From a virus, in IMG/VR virus record IMGVR_UViG_3300038660_000290, positions 1 to 31,005 of that record: DNA of 31,005 nucleotides; one strand, written 5' to 3'. Positions within the stretch are counted from its first letter, which is position 1. Each line of letters opens with the position of its first letter. A program made the translations under genes and the position numbers. The notes under the pieces are model-generated. The model was given only the letters and a program-made list of their open reading frames with translations, searched no databases and was not told the DNA's origin. This document shows positions 1-4,653 of this stretch, one piece after another.

Positions 1-55
1 AAGACGCCTGATTTTGAGTCAGGAAATTTAGGTTCGATACCTAAGCGGGCATCCA
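1..55 (+). tRNA. tRNA-Gln (TTG), 5' end cut off by the window edge
   Basis: The anticodon arm is 5 bp (CCTGA/TCAGG) around loop TTTTGAG, which gives anticodon TTG. A perfect T-arm (TTAGG/CCTAA) follows, then the 3' acceptor strand GCGGGCA, base T and an encoded CCA at 53-55. The 5' acceptor strand and D-arm lie outside the window. The discriminator base T is unusual for tRNA-Gln, which normally has G, so the identity is less sure than the presence of a tRNA. Confidence 0.75.
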
Positions 56-62
56 ATATCAT

Positions 63-140
63 TGCGGGGCGTAGCAGAATGGTGATGCATCAGACTTTGA
101 ATCTGATTTTTGGGAGGTTCGATTCCTTCCCCCGCAGCCA
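63..140 (+). tRNA. tRNA-Gln (TTG)
   Basis: A full cloverleaf is visible: acceptor TGCGGGG/CCCCGCA, anticodon stem TCAGA/TCTGA with loop CTTTGAA (anticodon TTG), T-loop TTCGATT, discriminator G and encoded CCA. U1 and G73 agree with bacterial tRNA-Gln. It lies 7 bases downstream of the first tRNA and 6 bases upstream of tRNA-Lys, so the three are probably one transcript. Confidence 0.93.
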
Positions 141-146
141 AACAAT

Positions 147-222
147 GCACCGGTAGCTCAGTGGTCAGAGCGGTGGGCTTTTAACCCGCGCGTCCGGGGT
201 TCGAATCCCCGCCGGTACACCA
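147..222 (+). tRNA. tRNA-Lys (TTT)
   Basis: Acceptor GCACCGG pairs with CCGGTAC with one C-A mismatch. The D-arm is standard. The anticodon stem GTGGG/CCCGC encloses CTTTTAA, giving anticodon TTT. The T-arm CGGGG/CCCCG is perfect and CCA is encoded at 220-222. Confidence 0.93.
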
Positions 223-239
223 AAATCGTTTCAAGGTGC

Positions 240-268
240 TTGCTTCTCGTTTCAGAATTGCTTAGTTT
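240..268 (+). promoter_or_regulatory. Weak sigma70-like promoter candidate upstream of the 71-residue gene
   Basis: TTGCTT (240-245) and TAGTTT (263-268) are separated by 17 bases in the 90-base gap between tRNA-Lys and the first CDS. Both hexamers are poor matches to consensus, so this is a candidate only. Its spacing equals that of the better promoters elsewhere in the window. Confidence 0.25.
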
Positions 269-312
269 ACGTTTCACGTACAAAGCGAATCACTCCAATG
301 AAGGAAGTTACC

Positions 313-528
313 ATGTCAGACCAAGACCAAAGCAATGGCGTTCTCGGCCAAGTCGTAAACGCTATCAACAAAGACAAGCGCGAAGCCCTCAAGAAGGAAC
401 TTCGTGGAAAGATCACCGAATACCGCAAGGCGCAGGGCGCGGCGGATGTGATCCTCGACGACATCGTCACCACACTGACGGAAGCCGGTGAGAGCGCCGA
501 CGGCATCGCCGAGCTTCTCAAAAGCTGA
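313..528 (+). CDS. Hypothetical small helical protein (71 aa)
   Basis: The product is a short, highly charged, mostly helical protein with no signal peptide or membrane segment. I do not recognise a family. The start at 313 is preferred over an in-frame ATG at 298 because AAGGAAG (301-307) sits 5 bases upstream of 313 as a good ribosome binding site, and the 298 start would overlap it. The middle is basic (KDKREALKKELRGK) and the C-terminus acidic. The stop codon overlaps the start of the next gene by one base (TGATG), so the two are probably co-translated. It lies just after three tRNA genes; no function can be given. Confidence 0.7.
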   Translation: MSDQDQSNGVLGQVVNAINKDKREALKKELRGKITEYRKAQGAADVILDDIVTTLTEAGESADGIAELLKS

Positions 529-1379
529 TGGCCAAACCCTTTCCCGAAGTTGACTGGTCCGCGATTGAATCGCGGTACCTGACCCTACTTCGGGATCGGG
601 ACCCAGAAGAATTCCGTAAAATGTATCTCGGCGACTGGACGACCAATCCCCACATCCCAGAACACCACGTGGTATCGGTCAAGCCTTGCGCCAGAAAGTG
701 GGACTTTACAATGCCACCTCTTGAAGAAATAGCCCGTCACCATGACGTTTCCCCGACCGGTCGCTGGATGAACCCGCACGAGAAATTGAAGTTAGGGAAT
801 CCCTGCTCCGAGATCATCGCGAATCCACCGACCATTGAAGGCCACAAGATTCACCGCAGGCATCTGGTGTCGCTCACGTACGACGAGGATGATGGAACAA
901 TGTACTTCGAACAGAAGGCATGCTCCACCAATCCAGAGATTTCGTTTGGCCCGCTGACGTGTAGCCTTAGCAGGCTCATGAACCAAGAACACTACTGGCT
1001 CGACGCACAGGTCAGCCGCCGCGCGCGGGACTGGCGGTCGCCAGCCAAAGCGCGCATATACCTGACCAACGGTATCGTGCGGTACAAAGTTGCCACGGCA
1101 GACTGGGACGACATCCAGAGTGTCGCACGAATTGGCGGTGGATATGATCTCGCGGACCACATCAACAACGGGCTGAACCTCGTTCGTGCATGCTCTTCGA
1201 TGCCCATCATCCAAGAAGTGCACGTGGTCGATGAACGTGATCCATTTGATGTGATCACTGAACGGTACAAGAAGCCCAAGCGGGCAAAGAATCCAGACGT
1301 ACCCCTTCCGGGCACCAATCACACGCTCAAGGAAGAGGTTCGTTACCAGTTGACGGGAAAAACACCCGACCAACTTTGA
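528..1379 (+). CDS. Hypothetical protein (283 aa)
   Basis: This is a soluble 283-residue protein I do not recognise. It begins at an ATG overlapping the stop of the preceding small gene, and no separate strong ribosome binding site is seen, which suggests translational coupling. Near residues 25-37 it has a segment (DPEEFRKMYLGDW) resembling a short motif in the tails of some large terminases, but the rest shows no ATPase or nuclease signature, so I do not call it a terminase. The C-terminal third is rich in basic residues and prolines. It is followed by a 7-bp hairpin and tRNA-Arg. Confidence 0.75.
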   Translation: MAKPFPEVDWSAIESRYLTLLRDRDPEEFRKMYLGDWTTNPHIPEHHVVSVKPCARKWDFTMPPLEEIARHHDVSPTGRWMNPHEKLKLGNPCSEIIANPPTIEGHKIHRRHLVSLTYDEDDGTMYFEQKACSTNPEISFGPLTCSLSRLMNQEHYWLDAQVSRRARDWRSPAKARIYLTNGIVRYKVATADWDDIQSVARIGGGYDLADHINNGLNLVRACSSMPIIQEVHVVDERDPFDVITERYKKPKRAKNPDVPLPGTNHTLKEEVRYQLTGKTPDQL

Positions 1380-1406
1380 TCTGCCTCTGTCCATCATCTC
1401 CCTGAT

Positions 1407-1428
1407 GTGATATACAGAAGCATATCAC
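1407..1428 (+). repeat. Hairpin directly upstream of tRNA-Arg
   Basis: GTGATAT (1407-1413) and ATATCAC (1422-1428) form a perfect 7-bp inverted repeat with an 8-base loop. It ends exactly one base before the first base of tRNA-Arg. It could be a tRNA-processing signal or weak terminator for the upstream gene; no T-run follows. Confidence 0.5.
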
Positions 1429-1504
1429 GCTTCCGTAGCTCAGTGGACAGAGCGCCGCCCTCCGAAGGCGGGGGTCGCAGGTTCAAATCCTGCCGGGAGC
1501 ACCA
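1429..1504 (+). tRNA. tRNA-Arg (CCG)
   Basis: Acceptor GCTTCCG/CGGGAGC pairs with one G-T. The anticodon stem CCGCC/GGCGG is perfect around CTCCGAA, giving anticodon CCG. The T-arm is GCAGG/CCTGC, the discriminator is A and CCA is encoded at 1502-1504. Confidence 0.95.
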
Positions 1505-1508
1505 ATAT

Positions 1509-1590
1509 ATGGGTGTAGTCTAATTCGCGATGGACGTGAGGCGGTCTCCAAAGCCGCTGGCAAGGGGTTCGATTCCTCACACCCATGCCA
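1509..1590 (+). tRNA. tRNA-Trp (CCA)
   Basis: Acceptor ATGGGTG/CACCCAT is perfect. The anticodon stem GCGGT/GCCGC surrounds CTCCAAA, giving anticodon CCA. G73 fits bacterial tRNA-Trp and CCA is encoded. The D region is a few bases longer than usual. Confidence 0.9.
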
Positions 1591-1606
1591 ATTAGGAGAT
1601 GGCTCA

Positions 1607-1756
1607 ATGTGTCCAGCCGGATGTAACATTGATCCCGATACCCGACTGTGTCGCGCTTGCGGCAGAACACTTCAAGCCCTTATGGACCTGCTACAGGTCC
1701 CTAAAGCCGATCAAGATCACACGGTCAATTGGCTTATCTACCACCACTATCAATGA
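1607..1756 (+). CDS. Four-cysteine miniprotein (49 aa), probable zinc ribbon
   Basis: An ORF of 49 codons between two tRNA genes encodes a protein starting MCPAGC with a second pair LCRACG at residues 15-18. The two cysteine pairs (C2/C6 and C15/C18) would suit binding of one zinc ion. The start at 1607 has AGGAG (1594-1598) 8 bases upstream. An alternative ATG at 1599 in another frame touches the same AGGAG with no spacing and gives a non-descript peptide. The stop codon TGA (1754-1756) overlaps the 5' end of the next tRNA-like gene by two bases. The function is unknown. Confidence 0.6.
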   Translation: MCPAGCNIDPDTRLCRACGRTLQALMDLLQVPKADQDHTVNWLIYHHYQ

Positions 1757-1839
1757 ACCGAGATGTTAAGACTATGACTGGGTCAGCGCCGGGCTTTTAA
1801 TCCGGTTCAAAGGGGTTCGATTCCGCCCTCGGTTCTCCA
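1755..1839 (+). tRNA. Degenerate tRNA-Lys-like gene (TTT)
   Basis: The acceptor arm GAACCGA/TCGGTTC is perfect and followed by T and CCA. The anticodon arm CCGGG/TCCGG with loop CTTTTAA gives anticodon TTT. The D-arm region is about 7 bases too long, and the T-stem around TTCGATT has mismatches, as does its register with the acceptor stem. It may be a decaying or very unusual tRNA. It shares two bases with the stop codon of the upstream miniprotein gene. Confidence 0.6.
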
Positions 1840-1843
1840 ACAC

Positions 1844-1919
1844 GCCGTCGAAGCACATGTGGATGTGCGCCTGCCCGGTAAGCAGGAGGTAGGAGGTTCA
1901 AATCCTCTCGGCGGCACCA
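1844..1919 (+). tRNA. tRNA-Thr (GGT)
   Basis: Acceptor GCCGTCG/CGGCGGC, D-stem GCAC/GTGC, anticodon stem CCTGC/GCAGG with loop CCGGTAA (anticodon GGT), T-arm GAGG/CCTC, A73 and encoded CCA form a complete cloverleaf. Confidence 0.94.
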
Positions 1920-1923
1920 TTAC

Positions 1924-2010
1924 GGAAGGTGATCTCGGCTGGTGCCGGGGACCGGTTGCTAACCGCTTCGCAGGTAACCCTGTGGGGTTCAATTCCTCCG
2001 CCTTCCGCCA
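1924..2010 (+). tRNA. tRNA-Ser (GCT)
   Basis: A class II tRNA with a long variable arm (CAGG/CCTG stem). Acceptor GGAAGGT/GCCTTCC, G73 and encoded CCA are present. The anticodon loop TTGCTAA gives GCT; the anticodon stem has one C-C mismatch. The sequence is clearly related to the tRNA-Ser at 3347. Confidence 0.92.
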
Positions 2011-2025
2011 CATAGGAGAGACCCG

Positions 2026-2343
2026 ATGACCAAGAAAGACAACAAACGTTTTGTCGTACGCCGCATCCGCCGGGCTCTGAACAACGCGGAGACCCCGCCC
2101 ACACAGGCAGGACGCGTTCTGATCCGGTGCGGGTACGGCACCGGCGCTGGACGTAAGCAGATCGACGCCCGCGACATGCGCGATGACGACGAGTACGACT
2201 TTATGTTCCTGTCTGACAGCGCCTGCTGCGGTTTCTGCTACCGGTGCCCATTTGACGTGAGCGCCGACGGCGGCGAGGGGTGGTCTTTTGAGACTGCCAA
2301 TGATATGGAACCAGCGAAACTCGGCGACCTGATCGCCGCCTGA
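2026..2343 (+). CDS. Hypothetical protein (105 aa) with a cysteine cluster
   Basis: A 105-residue soluble protein with a basic N-terminus (KRFVVRRIRRAL), an acidic middle and a cysteine cluster, CCGFCYRC, near residues 67-74 that might bind metal. I do not recognise a family. AGGAG lies 8 bases upstream of the ATG. It opens a three-gene run (2026-3299) with short spacers and good ribosome binding sites, followed by a Pth2-like gene and a YkuK-like gene, so an RNA-related role is possible but unproven. Confidence 0.75.
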   Translation: MTKKDNKRFVVRRIRRALNNAETPPTQAGRVLIRCGYGTGAGRKQIDARDMRDDDEYDFMFLSDSACCGFCYRCPFDVSADGGEGWSFETANDMEPAKLGDLIAA

Positions 2344-2359
2344 CCCGAAAGGACCCGAC

Positions 2360-2773
2360 ATGCCCGACCACCGACTTTACATCATAATGCGCACAGACCT
2401 TGCCTCAATGAATGCAGGCAAGGGAATGGCACAGGCCGCTCACGCGGCCAACGCTTTTGAATTCAACATGGACGCAGACAAGGAAGAACTGACCAAGGAC
2501 ATGCGTCAAGCATGGGCCGACTGGGGAGCTTCCACCATGCAAGGCTTCGGCACCACAATCGTGGTTGCTGCAATGGATGAACAGACGATGACCGAGGCAG
2601 TTGAACAGGCTGTCAAGCTGGGCCTGCCCGGTGAGGTCATCCACGATCCAACCTATCCGGTACGGGACGGGGGAGTAACCCACCTGCTGCCGGTAAACAC
2701 GTGCGCGTACATATTTGTCCCGGTGCCCGAAACTGCTCCGAGCCTTCTCGCACGTATGAGTCTTCGTCCCTGA
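2360..2773 (+). CDS. Pth2-family peptidyl-tRNA hydrolase-like protein
   Basis: Pth2 enzymes cleave the ester bond of peptidyl-tRNAs released by stalled ribosomes and recycle the tRNA; they are unrelated to the usual bacterial Pth1. The 137-residue product has the family layout. A first strand ends in RTDL (11-14). The conserved GK..AQ..HA motif follows at 20-29 (K21, H28). A strand TIVVAAM lies at 66-72. The C-terminal part has RDGGVTHL (102-109) and a final strand ending in VPVP, matching the D-x-G-x-T element and terminal strand of Pth2. AAGGA lies upstream of the ATG. It sits inside a 14-member tRNA array, which fits the call. The length is slightly longer than the usual ~115-120 residues. 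Confidence 0.8.
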   Translation: MPDHRLYIIMRTDLASMNAGKGMAQAAHAANAFEFNMDADKEELTKDMRQAWADWGASTMQGFGTTIVVAAMDEQTMTEAVEQAVKLGLPGEVIHDPTYPVRDGGVTHLLPVNTCAYIFVPVPETAPSLLARMSLRP

Positions 2774-2789
2774 CAGAAAGGAGTCACCC

Positions 2790-3299
2790 ATGTTGAGCGA
2801 GAAGAAGATCAACCAAATCCGTGAAGTCTTAAAGGCGTCTTCGCCGGAGTCTCGTGTCTACATCGGCAACGACTCCTCGCGGCATCGCGATAAGCAAGAC
2901 GTCTGGCACGCAACCTACACCACCGCTGTCGTCATCCACATGATCGACGAGCATGGCATGGGCCACGGCTGCCGGGTCTTCACGGAGACCCAGAAGATGG
3001 TTGACTATGACAACCACAAGAGCAAGCCGTTCACTCGGATGATGCAAGAGTGCTACTTGGCGGTCGAGGCATACCAACAACTCGAAGAGGACTTGTTGGA
3101 GCACGACGTCGAGGTCCACTTGGACATCAACAAGAGCGAGATGCACGGCTCCAACGTCGCACACAACGCGGCGGTTGGATACGCTGTCGGTGTCACAGGC
3201 CGTCCCGTAAAGACGAAGCCAGAAGCGTTCGCGGCATCCTATGTGGCTGACCACGGTGTTCGCGACAAGTTCGCGCGAGAGAACGTGACACTTCACTGA
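2790..3299 (+). CDS. RNase H-fold protein of the YkuK (DUF458) family
   Basis: The 169-residue product matches the YkuK/DUF458 family, which has a predicted RNase H-like fold and unproven nuclease activity. Visible family features are strand one with the first acidic residue (YIGNDSS, D28), a central TTAVVIH strand, an acidic strand HLDINKS (D112) and the C-terminal block KTKPEAFAAS (141-150) followed by AD (153-154). These acidic residues are placed as in RNase H-like metal centres. AAGGAG lies 7 bases before the ATG, only 16 bases after the Pth2-like gene. Probable role: processing or degradation of nucleic acid, perhaps RNA. Confidence 0.8.
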   Translation: MLSEKKINQIREVLKASSPESRVYIGNDSSRHRDKQDVWHATYTTAVVIHMIDEHGMGHGCRVFTETQKMVDYDNHKSKPFTRMMQECYLAVEAYQQLEEDLLEHDVEVHLDINKSEMHGSNVAHNAAVGYAVGVTGRPVKTKPEAFAASYVADHGVRDKFARENVTLH

Positions 3300-3304
3300 A
3301 AAAT

Positions 3305-3337
3305 CTGCACGCCGACATCCCGACCGTTGGCGTGCAG
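3305..3337 (+). terminator. Stem-loop after the YkuK-like gene
   Basis: CTGCACGCC (3305-3313) and GGCGTGCAG (3329-3337) form a perfect 9-bp stem with a 15-base loop, 5 bases after the stop codon. Only an A/T-rich stretch follows rather than a T-run, so it may be a terminator or an RNA-stabilising or processing hairpin before tRNA-Ser. Confidence 0.6.
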
Positions 3338-3346
3338 TGAAAATTT

Positions 3347-3435
3347 GGATGGTGATCCTCGCTGGTGCGGGGGTACGCTTGGAAAGCGGTTCGCCCCCGA
3401 GAGGGGGTGGGGTTCAATTCCTCCGCCATCCGCCA
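3347..3435 (+). tRNA. tRNA-Ser (GGA)
   Basis: Class II tRNA with acceptor GGATGGT/GCCATCC, G73, encoded CCA and a strong variable arm (CCCCC/GGGGG, loop GAGA). The anticodon loop TTGGAAA gives GGA. The outer anticodon stem has two mismatches. It is closely similar to tRNA-Ser(GCT) at 1924. Confidence 0.9.
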
Positions 3436-3477
3436 ATCCATGAATATGCTGCATGGCAGCATTGCAGGCGTTGGGGG

Positions 3478-3505
3478 TTGTGCAGTTGCAGCATTTTGAT
3501 AAGAT
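3478..3505 (+). promoter_or_regulatory. Candidate promoter for the DUF1127 gene
   Basis: TTGTGC (3478-3483) and TAAGAT (3500-3505) are 16 bases apart, about 30 bases upstream of the small gene at 3535. The surrounding region also holds a 7-bp hairpin, ATGCTGC/GCAGCAT (3446-3462). The match to consensus is only partial. Confidence 0.3.
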
Positions 3506-3534
3506 GCTCCTGAAATCAACCAATGGAGTATCCA

Positions 3535-3657
3535 ATGTTTTCTCGATGGTTCGCACGACGCGACACACACAATCAACTTTCCGCAATGACCAATCGCCAG
3601 CTTGCCGACATCGGCATCAACCGTGGTGACATCAAGCGGATCGTATCCGAAATGTAA
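3535..3657 (+). CDS. DUF1127 (YjiS-like) small protein, 40 aa
   Basis: The 40-residue product has the DUF1127 signature: an arginine-rich N-terminus (FSRWFARR) followed by the helix-turn pattern L..MTNRQLADIGINRGDI (from residue 15) ending IVSEM. DUF1127 proteins are common in alphaproteobacteria, and one (CcaF1 of Rhodobacter sphaeroides) has been reported to bind RNA and act in RNA maturation and turnover. GGAG lies about 6 bases upstream of the ATG. The stop codon (3655-3657) abuts the first base of tRNA-Arg at 3658. The gene is not in the size range most gene finders report. The family assignment is from the motif; the role in the phage is inference. Confidence 0.75.
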   Translation: MFSRWFARRDTHNQLSAMTNRQLADIGINRGDIKRIVSEM

Positions 3658-3728
3658 ACCCCCGCCGCTGGGACGGACAAGGTCTTCTAAGCCAAGGGTG
3701 GTGAGTTCGATTCTCACCGGGGGTGCCA
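3658..3728 (+). tRNA. tRNA-Arg (TCT)
   Basis: Acceptor ACCCCCG/CGGGGGT is perfect, T-arm GTGAG/CTCAC is perfect, G73 and CCA are present. The anticodon loop CTTCTAA gives TCT. The anticodon stem is weak (three inner pairs), and the D-arm is short, making a 71-base gene. It begins directly after the stop codon of the DUF1127 gene. Confidence 0.85.
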
Positions 3729-3733
3729 ATCGT

Positions 3734-3793
3734 AACCGGACACAATGTGTCATATATGACCCGTAAAGCCGGTTAAGGGGTCATATATGACCC
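3734..3793 (+). promoter_or_regulatory. Twin palindromes TCATATATGACCC; operator-like region or hairpin
   Basis: Two copies of TCATATATGACCC lie at 3750-3762 and 3781-3793. TCATATATGA is itself a perfect palindrome, and the first copy also pairs with GGGTCATATATGA (3778-3790) to give a 13-bp stem with a 15-base loop. Flanking pairs AACCGG/CCGGTT and GACAC/GTGTC add more symmetry. This looks like a two-site protein-binding element or an RNA hairpin between two tRNA genes. The word ATGACCCGT also occurs upstream of promoters near 6836 and 13920. Confidence 0.55.
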
Positions 3794-3796
3794 ATT

Positions 3797-3872
3797 GCTG
3801 ATGAGGCCCATGAGGATGAGCAACCGCCTCGTAAGCGGAAGGTAGCAGGTTCGATTCCTGTCATCAGCACCA
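3797..3872 (+). tRNA. tRNA-Thr (CGT)
   Basis: Acceptor GCTGATG/CATCAGC is perfect, anticodon loop CTCGTAA gives CGT with stem CCGC/GCGG, the T-arm GCAGG/CCTGT is good, A73 and encoded CCA are present. Confidence 0.93.
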
Positions 3873-3931
3873 ACTTAATGTCGCCTCTGTTATACATTAA
3901 CCTCGGTTATGTAGCACGAAGCCTACATTAC

Positions 3932-4006
3932 GCCCTGCAAGCATTGACGGTGATGCAATAGTCTTGTAAGCTATGGAACTGAGTTCAAGTCTCAGGTAGG
4001 GCTCCA
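3932..4006 (+). tRNA. tRNA-Thr (TGT)
   Basis: Acceptor GCCCTGC/GTAGGGC, D-stem GCAT/ATGC, anticodon stem ATAGT/GCTAT with loop CTTGTAA (anticodon TGT), and T-stem CTGAG/CTCAG give a full cloverleaf. CCA is encoded at 4004-4006, and its final A is the first base of the start codon of the HNH gene. An inverted repeat ATGTAG/CTACAT precedes it at 3909-3928. Confidence 0.92.
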
Positions 4007-4404
4007 TGATTTGTACAAAATGCGAAGAGAATTTCCATCCGACCCCAACACAGTGCCGGGCGTTGTGTAAGGTATGCACGCGGTCGTACAACAATGCCTA
4101 TTATGCAAAAAATAAAAAACGCCGCGAAGCCGTGTGGAAATCTACACAAAACCGTATATCCAAAATGCTGTTGGAAATTTCGGATTACAAACGTCAGGCT
4201 TCTTGCAAGTTCTGTAAGGAGTCTGAGCCAGTTTGTCTGGACCTACACCACCTCGATCCAACCAATAAAGACGCAACAGTCAGCCGGATGGTGAGCGACA
4301 ATCGCCCAGCACAGCTTATTTGGCGTGAAGTTTCAAAGTGCATTGTTGTGTGCAAAAATTGCCATTCTAAGGTTCATGCAGGATTATTGCATTGCTCCAA
4401 TTAA
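4006..4404 (+). CDS. HNH endonuclease with zinc-binding cysteines
   Basis: The 132-residue product has an N-terminal cysteine set (C3/C6, C17, C21/C24) like a small zinc finger and a C-terminal HNH nuclease domain. That domain has CKFC (67-70), LHHLDP (80-85) with the catalytic-type HH, and CKNCHSKVH (116-124), the final C..CH...H of HNH enzymes. HNH proteins nick or cut DNA and are often homing or packaging enzymes in phages. The start ATG uses the last A of the CCA of tRNA-Thr, and the stop TAA abuts tRNA-Pro, so the gene exactly fills the gap between two tRNAs. It is visibly more A/T-rich than its neighbours, suggesting recent transfer. No good ribosome binding site is seen upstream. Confidence 0.8.
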   Translation: MICTKCEENFHPTPTQCRALCKVCTRSYNNAYYAKNKKRREAVWKSTQNRISKMLLEISDYKRQASCKFCKESEPVCLDLHHLDPTNKDATVSRMVSDNRPAQLIWREVSKCIVVCKNCHSKVHAGLLHCSN

Positions 4405-4476
4405 CAGGGTATGTTCTGGTGGCGGCGTGGGCTTTGGAAGCTTGCTGATCGGGTTCGATCCCCGGTACCCTGACCA
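4405..4476 (+). tRNA. tRNA-Pro (TGG)
   Basis: Acceptor CAGGGTA/TACCCTG, A73 and CCA are present. The C1-G72 pair fits bacterial tRNA-Pro. Anticodon loop TTTGGAA gives TGG; the anticodon stem TGGGC/GCTTG relies on three G-T pairs. The T-arm has loop TTCGATC. Confidence 0.9.
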
Positions 4477-4495
4477 TTATGCGCGTGAGCGCAGA

Positions 4496-4571
4496 CAGTG
4501 TATAGCTCAGTTGGTAGAGTGTCGGTCTGGGAGGCCGAAGGTCGCAGGTTCGAGCCCTGTTACACTGACCA
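4496..4571 (+). tRNA. tRNA-Pro (GGG)
   Basis: Acceptor CAGTGTA/TACACTG, standard D-arm, anticodon stem TCGGT/GCCGA with loop CTGGGAG (anticodon GGG), T-arm, A73 and encoded CCA make a complete tRNA-Pro. It is the last tRNA of the island. Confidence 0.95.
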
Positions 4572-4624
4572 ATCCAAAACGTTCAGAACAACCAAGCAAT
4601 GTCAACCGTCTCGACCGCATGCTA

Positions 4625-4653
4625 TTGACATGTGCCCTTTTGTTTGAGATTGT
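4625..4653 (+). promoter_or_regulatory. Candidate promoter for the portal gene
   Basis: A consensus -35 box TTGACA (4625-4630) is followed after 17 bases by GATTGT (4648-4653), a weak -10. The word ATGTGCC follows the -35 box directly, as in the spacers of promoters at 22729 and 24112. The predicted transcription start would fall at about the portal ATG. Confidence 0.4.

Follow-up and report, generated by a model that had tools for sequence, protein, structure and literature searches.

HNH endonuclease genes at tRNA boundaries: the tRNA island of a phage related to DSS3P8 and RcXuper

Phage tRNA arrays are already known to harbour homing nucleases, among them SegB and the HNH nucleases of mycobacteriophages. 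The segB gene of T4 is inserted between tRNA-Arg and tRNA-Ile (PMC2988022). Its product is described as cutting inside tRNA genes, with a motif RAWTSGAAC which is the reverse complement of the T-arm sequence GTTCSAWTY, and recombination between the 3' region of segB and the 5' region of tRNA-Tyr is described as well (PMC13096335). HNH nucleases have been reported from mycobacteriophage tRNA clusters (PMC6409571). Here we analyse a stretch of viral DNA of 31,005 nucleotides (nt; IMG/VR record IMGVR_UViG_3300038660_000290, positions 1 to 31,005; in the following called the window), which is a fragment of a marine phage related to DSS3P8 and RcXuper. Its positions 1-4571 are the right-hand end of a large tRNA island in a phage of this group and hold an HNH endonuclease gene that fills exactly the space from tRNA-Thr(TGT) to tRNA-Pro(TGG).

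This gene resembles segB of T4 and T6 in being a free-standing nuclease gene within a phage tRNA array. SegB belongs to the GIY-YIG type, whereas the window encodes an HNH nuclease, for which cutting and homing are putative, and stop codons at or inside tRNA 5' ends are a feature of the HNH family. A further likeness is to I-TevI of the T4 td intron, whose ribosome-binding site is described as hidden by RNA structure and whose open reading frame (ORF) runs with its 3' end into the structured intron RNA, where translation and folding interfere (PMC2988022). According to the same source, several means keep T4 homing nucleases low: concealed ribosome-binding sites, cleavage by RNase E, and overlaps. 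Unlike I-TevI, the HNH gene of the window is free-standing and flanked by tRNAs, with neither intron nor splicing. In mitochondria, tRNA ends serve as message ends (tRNA punctuation), and a stop codon may abut a tRNA or extend into it. The window shares such stop codons with mitochondria, but only some of its junctions are tight, and its tRNAs stand in an array and not between all genes. The articles on tRNA punctuation that were found by title concern organelles or other subjects, and among titles and abstract openings no work was recognised on the anchoring of HNH genes at tRNA 5' ends or on stop codons supplied by a tRNA.

The HNH gene and its family

The HNH gene (positions 4006-4404, + strand) codes for 132 amino acids and matches phrog_2255, HNH endonuclease, with an E-value of 1.1e-20. 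It is an ORF of its own within the tRNA array, without intron or intein. Its product retains 17 out of 17 invariant residues of an eight-row alignment, including HH81-82 and NCH118-120. No GIY-YIG domain was found in it, the PHROG matches being HNH endonucleases or families without a name. The GC content of the gene is 0.446, compared to 0.559 for the window. Both of its ends meet tRNAs, as a preliminary description of this DNA had noticed: A4006 is common to the start codon (ATG, 4006-4008) and to the CCA end of tRNA-Thr(TGT) (3932-4006), and the stop codon TAA (4402-4404) is followed with a gap of 0 by tRNA-Pro(TGG) (4405-4476). A start scan at the ATG gave a Shine-Dalgarno match of 4; the weak Shine-Dalgarno-like AGG, read from the sequence at 3994-3996 of the + strand, lies inside the tRNA-Thr, in its T stem/acceptor part.

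Among 13 related loci (L009-L021) a clear HNH match occurs only in the IMG/VR contig L015, where it is located elsewhere in the island and not beside the portal gene; a weak match (E 0.18) in L017 is not beside the portal either. The intact HNH gene of L015 starts 11 nt past a tRNA-Ser and ends on a TAG which represents bases 8-10 of a tRNA-Met. The same island contains a decayed HNH stretch (L015, 2151-2500) with in-frame stops, which runs into tRNA-Asp; the second HNH gene looks intact. For homologues in named phages, the gap between the HNH stop and the tRNA is +1 and -7 in FelixO1, +4 in DU_PP_I and -10 in Hena1, KE23 and KIL1 (negative values denote overlap). Exceptions are a third HNH gene of FelixO1, with a gap of 233, and YS35, in which the nearest same-strand downstream tRNA is 336 nt away.

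For a broader survey, an alignment of eight HNH proteins was used as query; most of these came from genes beside tRNAs, and therefore the sample leans to tRNA-adjoining relatives. The survey covers the best 80 of at least 536 IMG/VR loci encoding a relative and the best 80 of 481 genome-contig loci; duplicates were removed, 10 among the 95 viral and 12 among the 95 genome instances. Before deduplication, 79 of the 95 viral instances were found in loci with tRNA, and a same-strand tRNA 5' end was located within [-30,+15] of the HNH stop in 37. In the deduplicated viral set, 33 of 85 stops have a same-strand tRNA 5' end within [-40,+15], compared to 6-15 of 85 in ten other windows of 55 nt and 3 of 85 for antisense tRNAs. 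Stop codons lie inside a tRNA for 27 of 53 HNH genes versus 9 of 301 other genes in these loci (Fisher 2e-18), a comparison made throughout with one home-made gene caller and on loci that do not count as independent. Of the 28 overlaps in the deduplicated viral set, 14 have the value -10, with the stop codon TAG being tRNA bases 8-10, and 22 use the same reading frame with respect to the tRNA. Counted from the NCH motif, tRNA base 1 most often follows after 23-32 nt (about 21 of 37 measured). Judged by these comparisons, the HNH gene of the window is a member of a widespread family of free-standing HNH genes with 3' ends abutting or entering tRNA 5' ends.

A separate observation concerns 20 archaeal genome loci, labelled as haloarchaea (L122, L127, L128, L131, L132, L137-L140, L142, L143, L146, L147, L150-L152, L155, L159, L163 and L171). 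Here an HNH gene is located 26-213 nt upstream of a tRNA, which is always tRNA-Gln, and often there are two HNH matches.

Occupied and empty sites in homologous phages

FelixO1 and PMBT20 differ in an HNH gene that is present in FelixO1 between tRNA-Gly and tRNA-Thr and missing in PMBT20. The left flank is identical over 83 nt and the tRNA-Thr differs by one base; by alignment, this is a clean insertion into a tRNA-tRNA spacer. The comparison of FelixO1 with wV8 points to the same insertion place, where TTAA flanks the insert at either end. Altogether 253 phage records match the FelixO1 site, 15 of which hold most of the stretch; among 25 of the 253 that were viewed, 22 lack the HNH gene and match in two pieces. 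In DU_PP_I an HNH gene stands where F1M1E and CR3 have a tRNA-Thr, and bases of the old spacer complete its TGA. For the second HNH gene of DU_PP_I no clean boundary was found in comparison to F1M1E and CR3.

An HNH gene in KIL1 overlaps with a tRNA-Thr(TGT). Further downstream the sequence becomes identical to KIL5 again at GGTTCGAATCC, which is the T arm of another tRNA-Thr(TGT), the one that KIL5 itself has. This single case suggests, from the alignment, that a resident tRNA was replaced, with the breakpoint in its T arm. The preferred motif described for SegB is the reverse complement of a T arm (PMC13096335); its comparison with the KIL1 breakpoint is drawn by us. At this place KIL1 carries an unannotated hybrid tRNA (L036, about 2915-2989; KIL5: L199, 985-1061), with a foreign 5' part and, from the T arm onward, what is left of the 3' portion of the tRNA-Thr that is whole in KIL5.

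From such sites the HNH family is probably mobile and homing. By extension from the homologues, we infer that the HNH gene of the window, too, is a free-standing nuclease gene which was inserted between two tRNAs.

The tRNA island and its junctions

The nearest annotated relatives of the window are Rhodobacterales phages of 146-150 kb (DSS3P8, V10, DSS3_MAL1, RpAliso, RcXuper and MD18), and closer to it are the IMG/VR contigs L015, L016 (= L018) and L017. The window and the annotated relatives have a gene order in common, consisting of tRNA-Thr(GGT), a PTH2-type peptidyl-tRNA hydrolase, an RNase H-like protein, tRNA-Arg, tRNA-Thr and/or tRNA-Pro, and the portal gene; in the window, portal and capsid genes come directly downstream of the island. 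The hydrolase gene (2360-2773, +; Pfam PF01981, 42.8 bits) has a match in every one of the loci L009-L021 (13 of 13, although PTH2 was the query that retrieved three of them), and the RNase H-like gene (2790-3299, +; PF04308, 60.5 bits) in nine. Both stand as a pair inside the tRNA island (2360-3299).

The preliminary description counted 14 tRNA or tRNA-like genes in the first 4.6 kb. This number holds if it is taken to include a tRNA truncated at the contig edge (1-52) as well as a degenerate element (1755-1839); the possibility that all 14 are ordinary tRNAs was rejected on account of these two. ARAGORN called eight, and our own rule-based scanner found 12, missing only the two just named. 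The covariance-model check recommended earlier supports part of the set: Rfam found seven at the gathering cut-off with fast filters and an eighth with laxer ones (1509-1587, 30.8 bits, cut-off 29), the remaining ones being below cut-off or uncalled.

All parts of the island are on the + strand. The cut tRNA (1-52; Rfam RF00005, 25.9 bits), whose anticodon TTG was read by hand, is followed by tRNA-Gln(TTG) (63-140) and tRNA-Lys(TTT) (147-222), both called by ARAGORN and with Rfam scores of 43.1 and 63.3 bits. Further downstream lie tRNA-Arg(CCG) (1429-1504; ARAGORN, 71.3 bits) and a long, irregular tRNA-Trp(CCA) (1509-1590), the bounds and anticodon of which were set by hand; the scanner agrees on its ends and differs on the anticodon alignment, and L015 has a tRNA-Trp(CCA) at the same place. 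The degenerate element, uncalled by both programs, reaches 18 bits only with the tRNA-Sec model and has an irregular T stem, its anticodon TTT and bounds again being read by hand. Then come tRNA-Thr(GGT) (1844-1919; ARAGORN, 52 bits) and two class II tRNAs, tRNA-Ser(GCT) (1924-2010) and tRNA-Ser(GGA) (3347-3435), which were found by the scanner and score 45.5 bits each with the tRNA-Sec model, under its cut-off of 47. The tRNA-Arg(TCT) at 3658-3728, likewise found by the scanner, has 71 nt and a short D arm. These three were missed by ARAGORN in the window and have homologues in relatives; for tRNA-Arg(TCT) this is L016/L018 6391-6461, where the pairing of the acceptor stem is kept through base changes. 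The island ends with tRNA-Thr(CGT) (3797-3872; 48.7 bits), tRNA-Thr(TGT) (46.8 bits), tRNA-Pro(TGG) (24.3 bits, below the cut-off of 29) and tRNA-Pro(GGG) (4496-4571; 64.8 bits), all called by ARAGORN.

Besides the one in the window, Arg tRNAs that measure 71-73 nt and have their short D arm right behind the acceptor stem are found in L009 (6083-6155), L010 (6082-6154 and 7324-7396) and L011 (6847-6919), and several are unannotated or annotated with other bounds. By eye, the spacer between tRNA-Arg(TCT) and tRNA-Thr(CGT) (3740-3793) contains two copies of a GTCATATATGACCC-like palindrome, a possible operator.

As described before, three stop codons meet tRNA 5' ends. Besides that of the HNH gene, these belong to a gene for a small DUF1127 protein (3523-3657, +; Pfam PF06568, 47.4 bits, cut-off 23.3), whose TAA (3655-3657) abuts tRNA-Arg(TCT) with a gap of 0, and to a zinc-ribbon-like, DUF1289-like miniprotein of 49 amino acids (1607-1756, +; Pfam 21.3 bits, E 2.4e-4, below the cut-off of 27), whose TGA (1754-1756) overlaps the tRNA-like element starting at 1755 by 2 nt. 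DUF1127 homologues are at the same place in L009, L010, L014, L016 and L018, and their distance to tRNA-Arg(TCT) is 1 nt in DSS3P8 and V10 (TAA), 1 nt in MAL1 (TGA) and 2 nt in L016/L018 (TAG). The junction is thus retained across four lineages although the stop codon varies. The Rhodobacter DUF1127 protein CcaF1 is described as cotranscribed with the CcsR small RNAs and as taking part, together with RNase E, in their processing (PMC10253847). A DUF1127 gene ahead of small structured RNAs is common to both settings; the downstream RNAs are CcsR RNAs in Rhodobacter and tRNAs in the phage, and RNA binding by the phage protein is putative. The miniprotein has a DUF1289 homologue in L015, where no tRNA was called between this homologue and tRNA-Thr(GGT), and therefore its junction is not conserved.

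In the window, three of five junctions from a coding sequence to a tRNA are within [-2,0] nt, the remaining ones measuring 47-49 nt. The annotated relatives have 5 of 32 within [-2,+2]; these proportions are not those of punctuation of the mitochondrial type. In five annotated relatives, 9 of 32 such gaps measure 0-8 nt and 3 of 32 are overlaps; for instance, in RpAliso and RcXuper a methylase gene is separated from tRNA-Val by 0 and 1 nt. Between tRNAs, 84 of 186 gaps in the window and eight relatives are 15 nt or less, 1 nt being the commonest value (19). A pure chance origin of the junctions was rejected, since four lineages have the DUF1127/tRNA-Arg junction and HNH genes overlap tRNAs far more often than the control does. 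Promoters and terminators between the genes were rejected as evidence because their numbers do not exceed those in shuffled sequences: promoter-like sites are 4 versus 3.1, and terminator-like sites on both strands 7 versus 5.4, one of them on the + strand at 4616-4634.

Explanations for the tight junctions

We consider it likely that two causes act together: packing with short spacers, and insertion of the HNH gene at a tRNA boundary, where tRNA processing would limit the nuclease. Where tRNAs and short genes share a strand and only a few nt separate them, a stop codon reaches the 5' end of the next tRNA in much the way that tRNAs nearly touch each other. The preliminary description saw protein genes cut to fit between tRNAs; the tight geometry stands, while packing with spacers of 1-8 nt is the simpler general cause and the HNH gene is better explained by insertion. 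Genes of its family settle at tRNA 5' boundaries, and their stop codon comes either from the spacer or from bases of the tRNA.

A transcript common to the tRNAs and mRNAs of the island is plausible: every part lies on the + strand, that strand has a single terminator-like site (4616-4634), and over both strands such sites are no more frequent than in shuffled sequences. Were the island transcribed as one RNA, RNase P would set the 3' ends of the DUF1127 and HNH messages. Cleavage at the gene ends, as proposed earlier, would occur just past the stop codon at 3658 and 4405, but at 1755 it would fall inside it. Trimming of tRNA-Thr(TGT) to its CCA at 4006 would part the A from the TG of the HNH start codon and thereby destroy it; therefore the nuclease would be made only from unprocessed RNA, and its level would stay low, as is known for T4 homing nucleases. 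In overlapping HNH genes elsewhere, cleavage at tRNA +1 would take the stop codon off the message. In the window the stop would survive, and it is the start codon and the weak AGG that lie in tRNA-Thr. Competition between tRNA maturation and translation of adjoining genes is plausible from this geometry. Among the island genes the case is strongest for the HNH gene, because its start codon and the Shine-Dalgarno-like AGG lie in the 3' end of tRNA-Thr; for DUF1127, with its gap of 0, competition may be inferred, and for the miniprotein the case is weak because its tRNA is degenerate.

Several points weigh against this reading. The control for stop codons inside tRNAs had dropped non-HNH genes with more than 60 nt within tRNAs, which favours our reading. 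On genome contigs, overlap with a tRNA is limited to 7 of 83 deduplicated HNH instances, and a further 7 abut one within 15 nt. An HNH start overlapping the 3' end of an upstream tRNA was estimated in only 3 of 48 survey genes with an upstream tRNA, and the shared CCA/ATG is therefore atypical of the family. Among the relatives compared, none was found in which tRNA-Thr(TGT) stands directly beside tRNA-Pro(TGG), so that no empty site bears out the window's own insertion. Finally, mitochondrial messages ending at a stop codon are translated, and abutment therefore need not hamper translation.

Pressure to shorten spacers could alone have set all gene ends, those of the HNH gene included, with neither mobile anchoring nor regulation. 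The tRNA-tRNA spacers, just as short with a mode of 1 nt, and the non-HNH genes that abut tRNAs too (25 of 301 within [0,15]) agree with this, but it leaves unexplained the excess of HNH stops inside tRNAs (27 of 53 versus 9 of 301) and the clean presence or absence of an HNH gene in one FelixO1-like tRNA-tRNA spacer, which makes packing as the sole cause unlikely. Still less likely is a selected regulatory design at all junctions, the view of the preliminary description, in which abutment would tie the maturation of a tRNA to the translation of its neighbour (DUF1127, the miniprotein or the HNH gene) and processing would switch the messages off. The DUF1127/tRNA-Arg junction, conserved at 0-2 nt with three different stop codons, and the role of the cotranscribed CcaF1 in RNA processing described for Rhodobacter (PMC10253847) would suit it; yet gaps of 1-2 nt are the usual state in this phage family, the tRNA beside the miniprotein is degenerate and that junction is not conserved in L015. 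The HNH gene might also be a domesticated packaging or defence nuclease, kept near the portal gene and not homing. Portal and capsid genes do come directly after it, and the HNH nuclease of HK97, encoded upstream of the terminase, is described to act in packaging (PMC10448857). This idea is highly improbable, as an HNH match at E <1 is present in only 2 of 13 related loci (L015 and, weakly, L017) and not beside the portal, the GC content of the gene is low, and the HNH family tracks tRNAs, not portals.

Returning to insertion at tRNA boundaries, a wider version can be offered only tentatively. HNH genes would then be widespread tRNA-anchored mobile cassettes, many of which borrow a stop codon from the tRNA (TAG, bases 8-10); they would cut a conserved arm of the resident tRNA gene and supply a replacement of the same identity, and tRNA maturation would be their off switch, with RNase P at +1 stripping the stop or, in the window, 3' processing stripping the start. 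If HNH genes generally use tRNA 5' boundaries and tRNA bases for their stop codons, tRNA processing would be a ready-made limiter of a mobile nuclease. Phage tRNA arrays would then be homing territory of HNH nucleases, which would offer one explanation for the mosaic tRNA islands of phages.

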